Source: Methanospirillum hungatei JF-1
Lineage (GTDB): Archaea; Halobacteriota; Methanomicrobia; Methanomicrobiales; Methanospirillaceae
DNA: 64,000 bases
Reading direction: 5' to 3'
Assembly: GCF_000013445.1 (NCBI RefSeq)
Contig: NC_007796.1
Coordinates: forward strand, 3,136,936-3,200,935
Position 1 is the first letter of the stretch; every line of letters starts with the position of its first letter. The position numbers were made by a program, and so were the translations under genes. Positions 43,585 to 48,256 of the stretch are shown in pieces. Below the pieces are notes generated by a model. The model was not told where the DNA came from and ran no database searches. It worked only from the letters and a program-made list of their open reading frames with translations.

Positions 43585-43666
43585 ATGCAAAATCGCATCA
43601 TATCGACACTCGCAACAGAATCTCTGCTGCTACAGGAATTGTGCTTACTAATGTGGATGGGAATGA

Positions 43667-43674
43667 GATATAAG
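43667..43674 (-). promoter_or_regulatory. TATA-like box for tRNA-Ser and the superoperon
   Basis: On the minus strand CCTTATATC lies about 85 bases before tRNA-Ser in the 122-base gap after deoxyhypusine synthase. A weaker ATATGAT nearer the tRNA is an alternative. Confidence 0.35.
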
Positions 43675-43706
43675 GGTTATGATTCCTGACTCTCATTCCC
43701 ATCGAA

Positions 43707-44848: not shown

Positions 44849-45628
44849 CTATAACGCCCGGATAAGGGATTCCCGGGTAACGATTCCGATAACTTTCCCA
44901 TTATCTGTGACAGGGATGCTGCTTATGTTCTTTGAAAGCATCTTTGACACAACTTCCGGGATCGTTGCACTCTTTTCAACACTCATAACCGGAGAACTCA
45001 TAATATCCCTGACCAGAATATTACGTATCTGATGTTCCTGGTGCCGGTCATCAACTGCTTCACGGAATTTGGTAAGAGCAACAGCAACATCGGTCTCAGA
45101 GACCAGTCCTGCGATCTTGTTGTCAGCCATGACAATGTATCTGGCAATCTTCTCATCAACCATCTTCCGGCGGAGATGAACCATCCGTTCTCCGGCCTCA
45201 ATTACATGGTGAGGCTCAGTGACCGAGGAGAGGTCTCCTTCTGGGACCATCTTAGCGAGTAAGTCTCCATATGCCACCTGTCCGACAATCTTGTTGTCTT
45301 CATTGTACACAACAGCCAGTTTTGCCTGGTTCTGAAGAAGCGGAATCAGGACGTCGATCTCCTGGTCCTCATATACAATGGTAAATTCGGTGTCAATGGT
45401 ATTGGAGACGTGGATCGCGGTTGGTGCAACTTCAGAGCTGTGTCTGGCACCAAGTTTTTCAACTATCTTCTGACGGGATACTGTCCCGACCACTTCATCG
45501 TGGTGAAGTACCACGAGGGGATCAAGTCCGGTATCAAGCATTTTATCCAGGGCATCGGTGACCGGAGCAGACTTTGCTACCGTAACCGGTTTTGCCATCA
45601 CGTCTCGTACAAGTATGGTATTGGTCAT
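44849..45628 (-). CDS. CBS-domain protein
   Basis: 259 residues made almost wholly of CBS repeats (about four, or two Bateman modules): VRDVMAKPVTVAKSAPVTD at the start and VRDIMSSPVMSVEKSATIPE near 200. No catalytic or DNA-binding domain. CBS pairs bind adenine nucleotides or SAM and act as energy sensors in other proteins. The start overlaps the previous gene (ATGA). Last of three tightly linked CBS genes. Confidence 0.9.
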   Translation of the reverse strand: MTNTILVRDVMAKPVTVAKSAPVTDALDKMLDTGLDPLVVLHHDEVVGTVSRQKIVEKLGARHSSEVAPTAIHVSNTIDTEFTIVYEDQEIDVLIPLLQNQAKLAVVYNEDNKIVGQVAYGDLLAKMVPEGDLSSVTEPHHVIEAGERMVHLRRKMVDEKIARYIVMADNKIAGLVSETDVAVALTKFREAVDDRHQEHQIRNILVRDIMSSPVMSVEKSATIPEVVSKMLSKNISSIPVTDNGKVIGIVTRESLIRAL

Positions 45629-46383
45629 TGAACCACTTCCCGTATTATGTCATCTCTGGTAATTATTCCTTTTATGCCGTTCCCGCCAGAGATTATCACA
45701 CTCTGACAGGCAGTCTCTAACATGACCGCCACGGCTTCTCTGGTTCTCGCTGTCTCAGGAAGAGACGGGATTATCGGCCTCATCATCCCTGCTGCGGTAC
45801 CAGACCCCGCATTTTCAGGGTTATCTACATAAAAGGCAAGATCACTTTCGGTAATAATCCCGACCGCTCCTCCATCATCAACAACGATTACTGCCCCTGC
45901 TCCTTTTTTCATGAGATCAACCACATGCACCGGGGAGTGTTCCGGGGTGACCATTGCAGGTTCATGCATTATCTCATGGACCGGAATATCCAGTTGTGCG
46001 ACCAGATGTGAGCGCAAAATGTCAGTCCTGGTCAGAATGCCCAGAACCATCCCCTGATCAATAACCGGTGCTCCCGAGATCTCATGACTGACCAGGAGGA
46101 GGAGCGCATCACGGATGCTGCTATCTGGGGATAAACTCACCAGATCAGTACTCATCACCTGACTCAGGGGGGCACTGTCCATCTTCCGATACCGCCAGTC
46201 TGGATCATTCTTCCGCAGACGAAACCCGATATCCTTCTTTGTGATGATTCCTCGTGCGCGACCTTCATCAACAACAAGAACCCTGGATATCTTATGCCTG
46301 AGCATCAGATTTCGTGCATGTGAGACGGTATCACCCGGCTTTGCGGCATGGACCGGTGTAGACATCAGATCTGAAACCAGCAT
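45625..46383 (-). CDS. CBS-domain protein
   Basis: 252 residues, about four CBS repeats: VSDLMSTPVHAAKPGDTVS, PLSQVMSTDLVSLSPDSS, VHEIMHEPAMVTPEHSPVH and a divergent fourth around MMRPIIPSLPETARTRE. Start chosen at the ATG 46383, 7 bases after AGGAG; a GTG one codon earlier is possible. Stand-alone sensor or adaptor by appearance. Confidence 0.9.
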   Translation of the reverse strand: MLVSDLMSTPVHAAKPGDTVSHARNLMLRHKISRVLVVDEGRARGIITKKDIGFRLRKNDPDWRYRKMDSAPLSQVMSTDLVSLSPDSSIRDALLLLVSHEISGAPVIDQGMVLGILTRTDILRSHLVAQLDIPVHEIMHEPAMVTPEHSPVHVVDLMKKGAGAVIVVDDGGAVGIITESDLAFYVDNPENAGSGTAAGMMRPIIPSLPETARTREAVAVMLETACQSVIISGGNGIKGIITRDDIIREVVQ

Positions 46384-46386
46384 CAC

Positions 46387-47262
46387 TTATCTCCTGTCAC
46401 CATTCACCGGTGAGAACGCCCTGACCAGATCAAACTCTGTGACCAGACCCACCAGTCTGCTTTGATCTATCACTGGCAGAGCACCGACCTTCTTTGCCAT
46501 CATGGCTCGTGCTGCATCGGTCACGGTTGCATCAGGATCGGTTGTGAACAGGTTCCCGCTTAACAGATCACGGACCGGGATGTTCATGACCTCTGCGACA
46601 TCCCCGGTGACCAGTTTTTCAAAAACTCGTCCGGTCCCGATGTACCGCACGATGTCGGTTGCAGTGATTATCCCGAATAACACATCATTTTTCACAATGG
46701 GCAGACGTCTGAACTGGTGTTCTGTCATTACCTTGGTAACAGTCGAGAGCGGACAGTCCGGCTGTTGAACCAGGAGAGAGCGGGTCATAACGCTCTCAAC
46801 CGGAGTAGCGGCATGTGACCGGCACAGGATCTTCAGTACGTCCCGCTCGGTGACGATGCCATTGAGCACCCCATATTCATCAACAATCGGAATGCCTCCA
46901 ATACGATCACGAAGAATGATATCAAGTGCTTCATTCAGCGTTGCATCAGGATGGAGGGTTCTGACATCAGTCTTCATGATCTTGCTGACACTTTCATTGA
47001 TTGCTGCGAGGAAATTCCCATCATGCTTGACATTGATGAGATTGAAGAGCTCACCACCGCCAAGAAAATCAATGACATCCCGTGCAGTAATAATTCCTTT
47101 CAGCCGATGAGTCCCCGGGTCTACTATAGGCAGTCTGCGAAATCCCCATTGGGTAAGGGTTTCAATTGCTCCAAAGATCCGCATGGTAGGCGGGGCTGAG
47201 ATCACTTTCGAGGTAGCTATCGAAAGAACGGTCCTGTTGTCATGGTCATGATGTGAATTCAT
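46387..47262 (-). CDS. CBS-domain protein
   Basis: 291 residues, about four CBS repeats: ATSKVISAPPTMRIFG, VSKIMKTDVRTLHPDATLN, VESVMTRSLLVQQPDCPLS and VRDLLSGNLFTTDPDATVT. An N-terminal HDHDNR stretch could bind metal but is too short to call. First of the three-gene CBS operon, with a possible leader hairpin upstream. Confidence 0.9.
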   Translation of the reverse strand: MNSHHDHDNRTVLSIATSKVISAPPTMRIFGAIETLTQWGFRRLPIVDPGTHRLKGIITARDVIDFLGGGELFNLINVKHDGNFLAAINESVSKIMKTDVRTLHPDATLNEALDIILRDRIGGIPIVDEYGVLNGIVTERDVLKILCRSHAATPVESVMTRSLLVQQPDCPLSTVTKVMTEHQFRRLPIVKNDVLFGIITATDIVRYIGTGRVFEKLVTGDVAEVMNIPVRDLLSGNLFTTDPDATVTDAARAMMAKKVGALPVIDQSRLVGLVTEFDLVRAFSPVNGDRR

Positions 47263-47300
47263 GAGATACCAGCCTTACGGTTACACAGTAAATACGTCCG

Positions 47301-47343
47301 GACATTCTGCCGGGAATGAACGATCAGAAAGCCGGCAGATGTC
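47301..47343 (-). promoter_or_regulatory. long inverted repeat in the CBS operon leader/promoter
   Basis: GACAT-t-CTGCCGG (47301-47313) pairs with CCGGCAGATGTC (47332-47343): 12 bp with one bulged base and an 18-base loop. It ends about 40 bases before the first CBS start. It could be an mRNA leader hairpin or a dyad operator at the transcription start. Confidence 0.6.
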
Positions 47344-47358
47344 AGGATTCAGGTCAAA

Positions 47359-47380
47359 AATTTATACCTCCGGGTTTATA
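47359..47380 (-). promoter_or_regulatory. two TATA-like boxes for the CBS operon
   Basis: On the minus strand TATAAATT (47359-47366) and TATAAAC (47374-47380). Starts about 25 bases downstream would fall inside or just before the inverted repeat at 47301-47343. Confidence 0.45.
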
Positions 47381-47474
47381 GGTGCCCGGATTCTCAAACA
47401 TTCGGATGAGATTGGAATGTGCCCGATACAGGAACATACAGCTTCTGGCAGAAGACCCTGTCAGCTGCTGTACA

Positions 47475-48041
47475 TTACAACCGGTCGTCTTCCATACAGT
47501 TCGGACAGATGAGGGAACCGTCTATACTGGTCAGTTCATCTGACATCTGGCCGCATCTGCTACACATCCCTGAACTAATGTCGTCAGCACGATTAATTAC
47601 CACGAGTTCGCCCATTAGTTCATTAATCTCGGTACTCACTGCAACGATATCCCGGACACTCACAATACCGATCACAACACCTTTGTCATTGATGATTGGC
47701 AGTCTTCTGACCCGGTTTCGGATCATCAGGTGAGCGGCATCCTCAACGGTTTTATCTGTACCAATTGTGATCAGGGGTGAAGTCATGATCTCACTGACAT
47801 GGACTTCACTCGGGCGCAGATCCCGGGCGACAACCTTGCAGTTTATATCCTGCTCGGTAACTATCCCCACGGCAACGCCATCCCGAAGGACAATACAACT
47901 GCCTGATGGATCCTTGCTGCACATTTTCCGTGCTGCATGCGCTACCGTTGCATGATAATCAATAGTCTTGGGGTTCGTTCGCATTATTTCCCGCACTGGG
48001 ACCTTGGTCTCGAGCTGGATCGTGTCACTGTTGTAGCTCAT
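47475..48041 (-). CDS. CBS-domain protein with C-terminal zinc ribbon
   Basis: 188 residues. Two CBS repeats (VREIMRTNPKTIDYHATVA, VSEIMTSPLITIGTDKTVE) are followed by a short zinc ribbon with CSRCGQM and CPNC. The ribbon suggests contact with nucleic acid or protein. Start chosen at ATG 48041, 5 bases after GGTGA; a GTG at 48050 is the alternative. It is upstream of the CBS operon on the same strand, with a 212-base gap. Confidence 0.88.
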   Translation of the reverse strand: MSYNSDTIQLETKVPVREIMRTNPKTIDYHATVAHAARKMCSKDPSGSCIVLRDGVAVGIVTEQDINCKVVARDLRPSEVHVSEIMTSPLITIGTDKTVEDAAHLMIRNRVRRLPIINDKGVVIGIVSVRDIVAVSTEINELMGELVVINRADDISSGMCSRCGQMSDELTSIDGSLICPNCMEDDRL

Positions 48042-48256
48042 TACTGTCACCTCTCGGTTTCCCGGGCAGATGCATTGCTCTGATACTTATCGGGATCGGG
48101 TATTAATCCATCGCTCCGGTGACCGGTATGTCAAATATGAAGATCCGAGACAGGTGGGATGACAACAATAATAATACTCCCTGATCATAACCATGTAGAC
48201 AGGCAGGCTTTTCACAGGCCTGATTTCAAAAAAACAAGCCCAGGGACGTAACCACA
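48042..48256. promoter_or_regulatory. divergent spacer between zinc-ribbon CBS gene and the GTPase gene
   Basis: 215 bases with no gene seen. On the minus side GGATTAATACC and on the plus side ACAATAATAATAC are AT-rich and could be promoters. An imperfect repeat of CAGGC (CAGGCAGGC ... CAGGCCTG) is near 48196-48220. Confidence 0.4.

Follow-up and report, generated by a model that had tools for sequence, protein, structure and literature searches.

Bacterial mRNAs such as ompA carry stabilising hairpins at their 5′ ends that are under little sequence constraint, and the CBS fold is known to bind adenosine nucleotides. Among methanogens, alternative 5′ UTRs have been described in Methanolobus psychrophilus, including a leader with a stem-loop near its start, where the choice of start site may decide whether the ribosome site is masked (PMC5378194, in the portions available). 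Archaeal gene clusters of CBS modules (CM-5/4/1/2) are present in various lineages, methanogens included, and CBS modules have been linked to ribosome hibernation, while CM-3 (HhpR), an archaeal CBS-module family, acts as a transcription factor (PMC13324472, 2026); the available portions of that report treat the proteins, and not the leader of the cluster or its control.

Here we describe a hairpin, H2, that lies in front of three CBS-domain genes, B, C, and D, of Methanospirillum hungatei JF-1. Like the M. psychrophilus example it is a putative stem-loop near the start of a methanogen leader, and the idea of a start-site-read switch considered below is similar, but in M. psychrophilus the start choice was mapped and the masking predicted (PMC5378194, same portions), whereas for H2 the start itself is a prediction and pairing of the hairpin arms with the ribosome-site region is no better than that of shuffled arms. 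B, C, and D resemble the CM-5/4/1/2 clusters in being consecutive CBS-module genes in a methanogen; the likeness drawn here is through their matches to ribosome entries. No published report of the element was found in open-licence papers on Methanospirillum, archaeal leaders, and CBS proteins.

In the window (the whole 64-kb stretch of JF-1 DNA that we analysed), four CBS-domain genes, A to D, are arranged head to tail:

47475..48050, minus strand: CBS gene A, encoding 191 aa with two CBS stretches and what looks by eye like a Cys-rich tail; located upstream of B in the same orientation
46387..47262, minus strand: CBS gene B, encoding 291 aa with four CBS stretches; its best match in the PDB is 9znf chain 5
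45625..46386, minus strand: CBS gene C, encoding 253 aa; its best match in the PDB is 9zni chain 6
44849..45628, minus strand: CBS gene D, encoding 259 aa; its best matches in the PDB are chain 7 of 9zni and of 9zng

A and B are separated by 212 bases, within which H2 lies, and are transcribed in the same direction. The initial annotation had put the repeat at the start of a CBS operon; because of its location between A and B it would mark the start of B-C-D, provided that an internal promoter is used there, and not that of the whole four-gene group. The PDB matches have E values of 1.5e-65 for B (followed by MJ1225 at 9.5e-58), 1.3e-39 for C, and about 9e-32 for D against both of its entries. 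All three entries (9znf, 9zng, and 9zni) also contain the small-subunit protein uS13 that is the best match of JF-1 uS13, and thus appear to be ribosomes with CBS proteins; from the uS13 match we infer that these ribosomes are archaeal. Because the best matches of B, C, and D are three different CBS chains of the ribosome entries, B-C-D probably encodes a set of ribosome-hibernation factors.

H2 is composed of 12 Watson-Crick pairs, one bulged base, and an 18-base loop, exactly as first described, and spans 47301-47343; on the minus (gene) strand, GACA-TCTGCCGG (47343-47332) pairs with CCGGCAGA-A-TGTC (47313-47301). Its parts are:

47332..47343, minus strand: H2 5′ arm (GACATCTGCCGG), identified by the repeat, by folding against shuffles, and by co-variation with the 3′ arm among relatives
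47314..47331, minus strand: H2 18-base loop; the near strain G008 differs at 3 loop positions and at none of the 25 arm bases
47301..47313, minus strand: H2 3′ arm (CCGGCAGAATGTC) with one bulged base, identified by the repeat, folding, and covariation

The 43-mer folds at −18.9 kcal/mol on the minus strand (z −4.9) and at −20.0 kcal/mol on the plus strand (z −5.5), with no equally stable shuffle among 200 in either case; for the whole 80-mer at 47301-47380 the z-score is −3.3 and a single shuffle of 200 is as stable. Hairpins of this class (at least 12 pairs, at most one bulge, and a loop of up to 25) number three in the window, compared with 0, 1, 1, 1, and 1 in five shuffled windows, and 12 in 464 kb of the JF-1 genome (the window plus 20 further stretches), six of them between predicted genes. 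By strength alone H2 is therefore borderline for a 64-kb window and not decisive, and the case for it as an element is made by its relatives. A chance palindrome kept by common descent and having no function would fit the expectation of about one such hairpin per 64-kb window, as well as its absence from the sister pair of genomes G009 and G010, and we return to this explanation with the comparative evidence.

Two other origins were considered and rejected. No intrinsic terminator was found in a scan of 47100-47700 and there is no run of T residues after the 3′ arm, so H2 is not a terminator of gene A. A mobile, REP-like, or dispersed palindromic repeat would be expected in many copies, and in the single 3,544,738-base contig that constitutes the JF-1 genome a DNA search, a covariance model, and the exact arm pattern each return one match, with no further copy. 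Allowing up to three mismatches at the same arm spacing adds one other place, with three mismatches. The covariance model (R1), for which 150 of the 1552 first-look candidates were scored, gave its one match at E ≤ 1; having been built from the same five loci that it finds, it is informative only about further copies within those scored candidates.

The remainder of the A-B gap contains several other elements:

47437..47474, minus strand: weak hairpin H0, just past the stop codon of A (z −1.8; 10/200 shuffles as good)
47369..47390, minus strand: hairpin H1, TCCGGG-N10-CCCGGA, two bases upstream of the TATA box; weak
47354..47366, minus strand: conserved promoter block TATAAATTTTTGA, including the TATA box at 47366-47361; aligned in relatives
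47340 (range about 47340-47335), minus strand: predicted transcription start, the A of a CA step, placed by the spacing of SRP RNA promoters and published spacings
47265..47275, minus strand: block AGGCTGGTATC just before the B start codon, identical in all six species for which a long gap was aligned

TATAAA occurs at two places on the minus strand, 47366-47361 and 47380-47375, and both of the boxes originally noted thus exist, but only the first is conserved; the second, which is within the loop of H1, reads TATCAA in G008. The promoter block together with two preceding G residues is present just once without mismatch in the JF-1 genome, and each of the four species that have H2 has the CA step 26-27 bases away from the first T of the TATA box. 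For the position of the start, we note that in SRP RNA genes of the genus the TTTTTATT box ends 19 bases before the modelled first base of the RNA. Promoter elements in M. psychrophilus are about 19-22 bases from the start (PMC5378194, in the portions available), and a general account centres the TATA box at −26/−27 (PMC8553660, likewise in part). These spacings place the B-C-D start at about 47340-47335, inside the 5′ arm of H2. The SRP RNA promoter (GGAAGTTTTTATYCC...GCATWAT) is very similar in all 12 genomes of the genus (L046-L057), which makes it a useful ruler; RNase P RNA promoters were dropped for this use, their upstream sequences being too variable.

Were transcription to begin at 47340, the inner 8-9 pairs of H2 could be transcribed but the outer ones could not. 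For a simple leader hairpin this is the chief obstacle, and on sequence grounds H2 could act as RNA or as DNA. Shuffles that fold as well as H1 number 17 of 500 in JF-1, 18 in G008, 91 in G011, 11 in G005, and none in G001, where H1 has other letters but pairs strongly. H1 was set aside as the operator of a regulon, there being one other exact match to its pattern in the JF-1 genome, at 3524233; pairing of the leader with the coding end of gene A was also set aside, as it looked, by eye, like a match to a conserved motif of the protein.

Gene B was found in all 12 genomes of the genus, and the A-B gap is readable in 11 of them; G006 is left out of the gap counts, as its contig ends within B, with no sequence upstream of it and no match to gene A. 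The search with B gave 30 loci in total, and the gap was examined in 14. H2 is present in five of the 11 genomes: JF-1 itself, the near strain G008, and three further species, G001, G011, and G005. Counted from the first T of the TATA box, the 5′ arm begins at position 21-24 and the dyad is centred at 43.5-45 bases in all five. The arm letters, in contrast to the position, change; the 5′ arm is GACA-TCTGCCGG in JF-1, GGACA-CCTGCT in G001, CTGGCATTCATC in G011, and CCTGGCACC in G005, which corresponds to 2/12, 5/12, and 6/12 differences from JF-1 respectively, and the 3′ arms differ at 4/13, 4/13, and 7/13 positions, although the B proteins of G011 and G005 are 88-89% identical to that of JF-1. 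The distance between the arms ranges from 17 to 29 bases. Between JF-1 and G008 none of the 25 arm bases has changed, against 3 of 18 in the loop and 14 of 169 in the rest of the gap.

Pairing is nonetheless retained. In an unfitted MAFFT alignment of the five rows, 86.2% of cells pair, against a shuffled mean of 75.1% (0/500 shuffles as high), and structures slid from the H2 position pair in 23-51% of cells with covariation scores of 0.09-0.20. The initial annotation had asked for covariation across relatives, and this is borne out: the covariation score of H2 is 0.454, which none of 500 shuffles reaches, and 6 of the 13 pairs have two-sided changes, a number reached by 16/500 shuffles. One of the five covariation measures, that of further pair types, is not above shuffles (200/500), and the RNAalifold covariation term is slightly unfavourable (0.12 and 1.84). 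The alignment comprises five rows, two of them near-identical strains, leaves out the six genomes with no hairpin, and represents about three independent lineages. The outer pairs at columns 24, 26, and 27 (G-C, C-G, and A-U) never vary. In the outer part only one two-sided change is clear, from A-U to G-C, and as it is common to the sisters G011 and G005 it counts as a single event. Shuffles as stable as H2 on the gene strand are absent among 500 for G008, G001, and G011, and number 15 for G005, where the fold is weak. The gene strand folds better than its opposite in the three other species (−24.6/−17.0, −25.0/−23.2, and −20.8/−16.7 kcal/mol), as expected if G-U pairs are tolerated in RNA; in JF-1 and G008 the corresponding values are −23.6/−24.7 and −23.2/−24.3 kcal/mol. 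Pairing thus appears to be kept while both sides change, as is characteristic of a conserved cis-acting RNA hairpin, in a small number of lineages, and H2 is probably a working control element rather than a product of chance. The two-sided changes, the shuffle and slide controls, and the unchanged arms beside a changed loop in G008 all weigh against the chance palindrome introduced above, which we regard as quite improbable.

The same comparison bears on the suggestion that the site might be a feedback site for the CBS sensors, for example a riboswitch or aptamer for nucleotides or SAM. Its location before genes for CBS proteins is in keeping with such a role, but neither the sequence nor the size of the loop is conserved, the structure is a simple hairpin without conserved internal bases, and Rfam gives no match up to E 10 at 47000-47700. 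As neither a conserved aptamer nor a known family is evident, and no ligand site is visible, we set the riboswitch aside as highly improbable, and the suggested feedback role is unsupported, although CM-3 (HhpR) provides a precedent for a CBS-module protein that acts on transcription.

The six remaining genomes with readable gaps have no H2. G009 and G010, whose B proteins are 90% and 85% identical to that of JF-1, have the AAATTTTTGAATTT promoter block at a similar distance from the ATG and no hairpin there. G009 does contain a different inverted repeat across a TATA-like block (L007:1391-1432), with 12-base arms that are 92% complementary and form 11 pairs, 18-19 bases between the arms, and 7/300 shuffles as good. 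The A-B gaps of G002, G003, G004, and G007 are short and have different possible folds; in these distant members of the genus (L009-L012) the gap is 95-103 bases and can be folded into several helices that are not the same in all, by eye with CCATCC/GGATGG outside and CGGTTT/AAACCG and ACCTG/CAGGT inside. The gaps of the sister genera differ; of these, L014 and L015 were folded. In a tree of B the genomes with H2 are compatible with one origin at weak support (57/71), and H2 is thus a feature of the hungatei group.

The strongest hairpin of the window provides a comparison. It has 13 pairs, is located at 43655-43704, and forms an inverted repeat around a TATA-like motif; we tested it in the same way as H2 in the 11 genomes of the genus. 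Shuffles as good, out of 300, number 0 in JF-1, 18 in G008, 86 in G001, 73 in G011, and 101 in G005, and in G009 the hairpin is not above chance. A hairpin reappears at this site in G010 (3/300) and, on the other strand, in G004 (0/300). The comparison hairpin is thus weakened or lost where H2 is kept, but is not a clean negative, and its presence in G010 suggests that the gaps of the genus may hold more functional repeats than were tested. Adjacent to it, on the minus strand at 43585-43654, is a noncoding segment of about 70 bases between the deoxyhypusine synthase gene and tRNA-Ser(GCT), following the TATA-like sequence CTTATAT. All 11 genomes of the genus examined have nearly the same first ~50 bases of this segment (ACATTRGTAAGCACAATTCCTGTAGCARCAG...TCTGTTGCGAGTGTC), and the remainder is common to seven and differs in G002, G003, G004, and G007. 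Rfam gives nothing here but weak chance-like matches beside the tRNA, and the segment is a candidate small RNA or structured tRNA leader.

Three explanations remain that give H2 a function without a ligand. If a dimeric regulator, possibly of the CBS-module type, were to bind the inverted repeat across the start and block or aid initiation, this would account for the predicted start inside the repeat, the fixed distance of the dyad centre from the TATA box, the three invariant pairs, the close similarity of the G001 5′ arm to that of JF-1, and the repeat over the core promoter of G009. The initial annotation offered such an operator at the transcription start as one of two possibilities, and its position is consistent with what we find; it is weakened because the arm letters change between close species, to the extent seen in G011 and G005. 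The variable distance between the arms also argues against it, as does the failure to find a second site in the JF-1 genome with either the arm pattern or the covariance model (within the candidates scored), and none of the seven neighbouring genes scanned has a Pfam family of a DNA-binding regulator. We consider a DNA operator rather unlikely.

Alternatively, A and B could be co-transcribed, with H0, H1, and H2 in the read-through RNA setting its processing, the protection of the 3′ end of the A message, or the ratio of A to B. Every one of the 11 genomes with a readable gap has A and B side by side in one orientation, and an RNA of this kind would contain all of the H2 pairs, the outer ones included. 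The strong pairing of H1 with other letters in G001 is in keeping with this proposal, as are the different structure that the short-gap distant members can fold and the presence of the G009 repeat elsewhere in the gap. However, read-through needs neither a conserved TATA box between H1 and H2 nor a fixed distance from it to the H2 centre, and H1 of G011 is no better than many shuffles; an intercistronic RNA thus seems somewhat unlikely.

We tentatively favour, at a little short of an even chance, the explanation that H2 is a lineage-specific hairpin at the 5′ end of the mRNA of a B-C-D operon. An internal promoter with its TATA box at 47366-47361 would start the B-C-D mRNA some 78 bases ahead of the B start codon, with the first base of the RNA at the beginning of the 5′ arm or a few bases into it, such that the message starts, or almost starts, with a stable hairpin whose shape, not its sequence, is under selection. 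As an RNA-level cis element, H2 may protect the 5′ end and restrict alternative folds of the leader around AGGCTGGTATC, ahead of the start codon, and could thereby set the message level or the translation of a set of CBS proteins related to ribosome-bound ones. Like the ompA-type hairpins, H2 is stable, predicted to be at or near the 5′ end, and little constrained in sequence; ompA is bacterial, and protection of the mRNA by H2 is putative. The drift of the letters together, with no fixed motif over most of the stem, and the tolerance of different inter-arm distances are as such a hairpin would have it, and the possibility of a leader RNA structure raised initially gains from the covariation. 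It is held back by the predicted start: at least three outer pairs may not be transcribed from this promoter, yet these also are kept. Furthermore, H2 is held by only 5 of 11 genomes and is lacking in G009 and G010 despite the kept promoter block, the G005 fold is weak, the lineages number about three, and of the covariation measures, further pair types do not exceed shuffles and the count of two-sided changes is matched by 16/500 of them.

A bolder version of the 5′-end hairpin is that H2 is a start-site-read switch of a ribosome-hibernation operon, in which small shifts of the start, or read-through from A, turn the proteins up or down. Transcripts from upstream of, or at, the 5′ arm would form H2 and leave the start-site block largely open, whereas a start a few bases further on would truncate the arm and let the leader fold back onto the block. 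When leaders are begun later in silico, they do refold over AGGCTGGTATC, with starts 29-33 in JF-1 and 27-33 in G005, but of the starts tried only at 31 in G001 and only at 33 in G011, and in most of the leaders with a full H2 the block is still in a small local helix. When the duplexes of arm and block are compared with those of 1000 shuffled arms in the four species, 383, 682, 134, and 357 are as good for the 3′ arms and 261, 245, 644, and 792 for the 5′ arms. Masking of the block by a freed arm was therefore set aside, as it is seen in some truncated leaders but the pairing is no better than that of shuffles, and for this reason the switch is offered only as the boldest reading, and an improbable one.

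The relatives, and not the strength of the hairpin, separate a likely element from chance here, as the four that keep H2 have not retained the stronger hairpin at 43655-43704. What is new is the context, in that the likeness of B, C, and D to ribosome-bound CBS chains places H2 before what is probably a ribosome-hibernation operon. As far as the literature covered goes, parts of it in excerpt, gene-level control of the proteins that idle archaeal ribosomes has been little explored; if B-C-D is a ribosome-hibernation set, H2 would be a small, concrete, and testable control site for it in a well-known methanogen.
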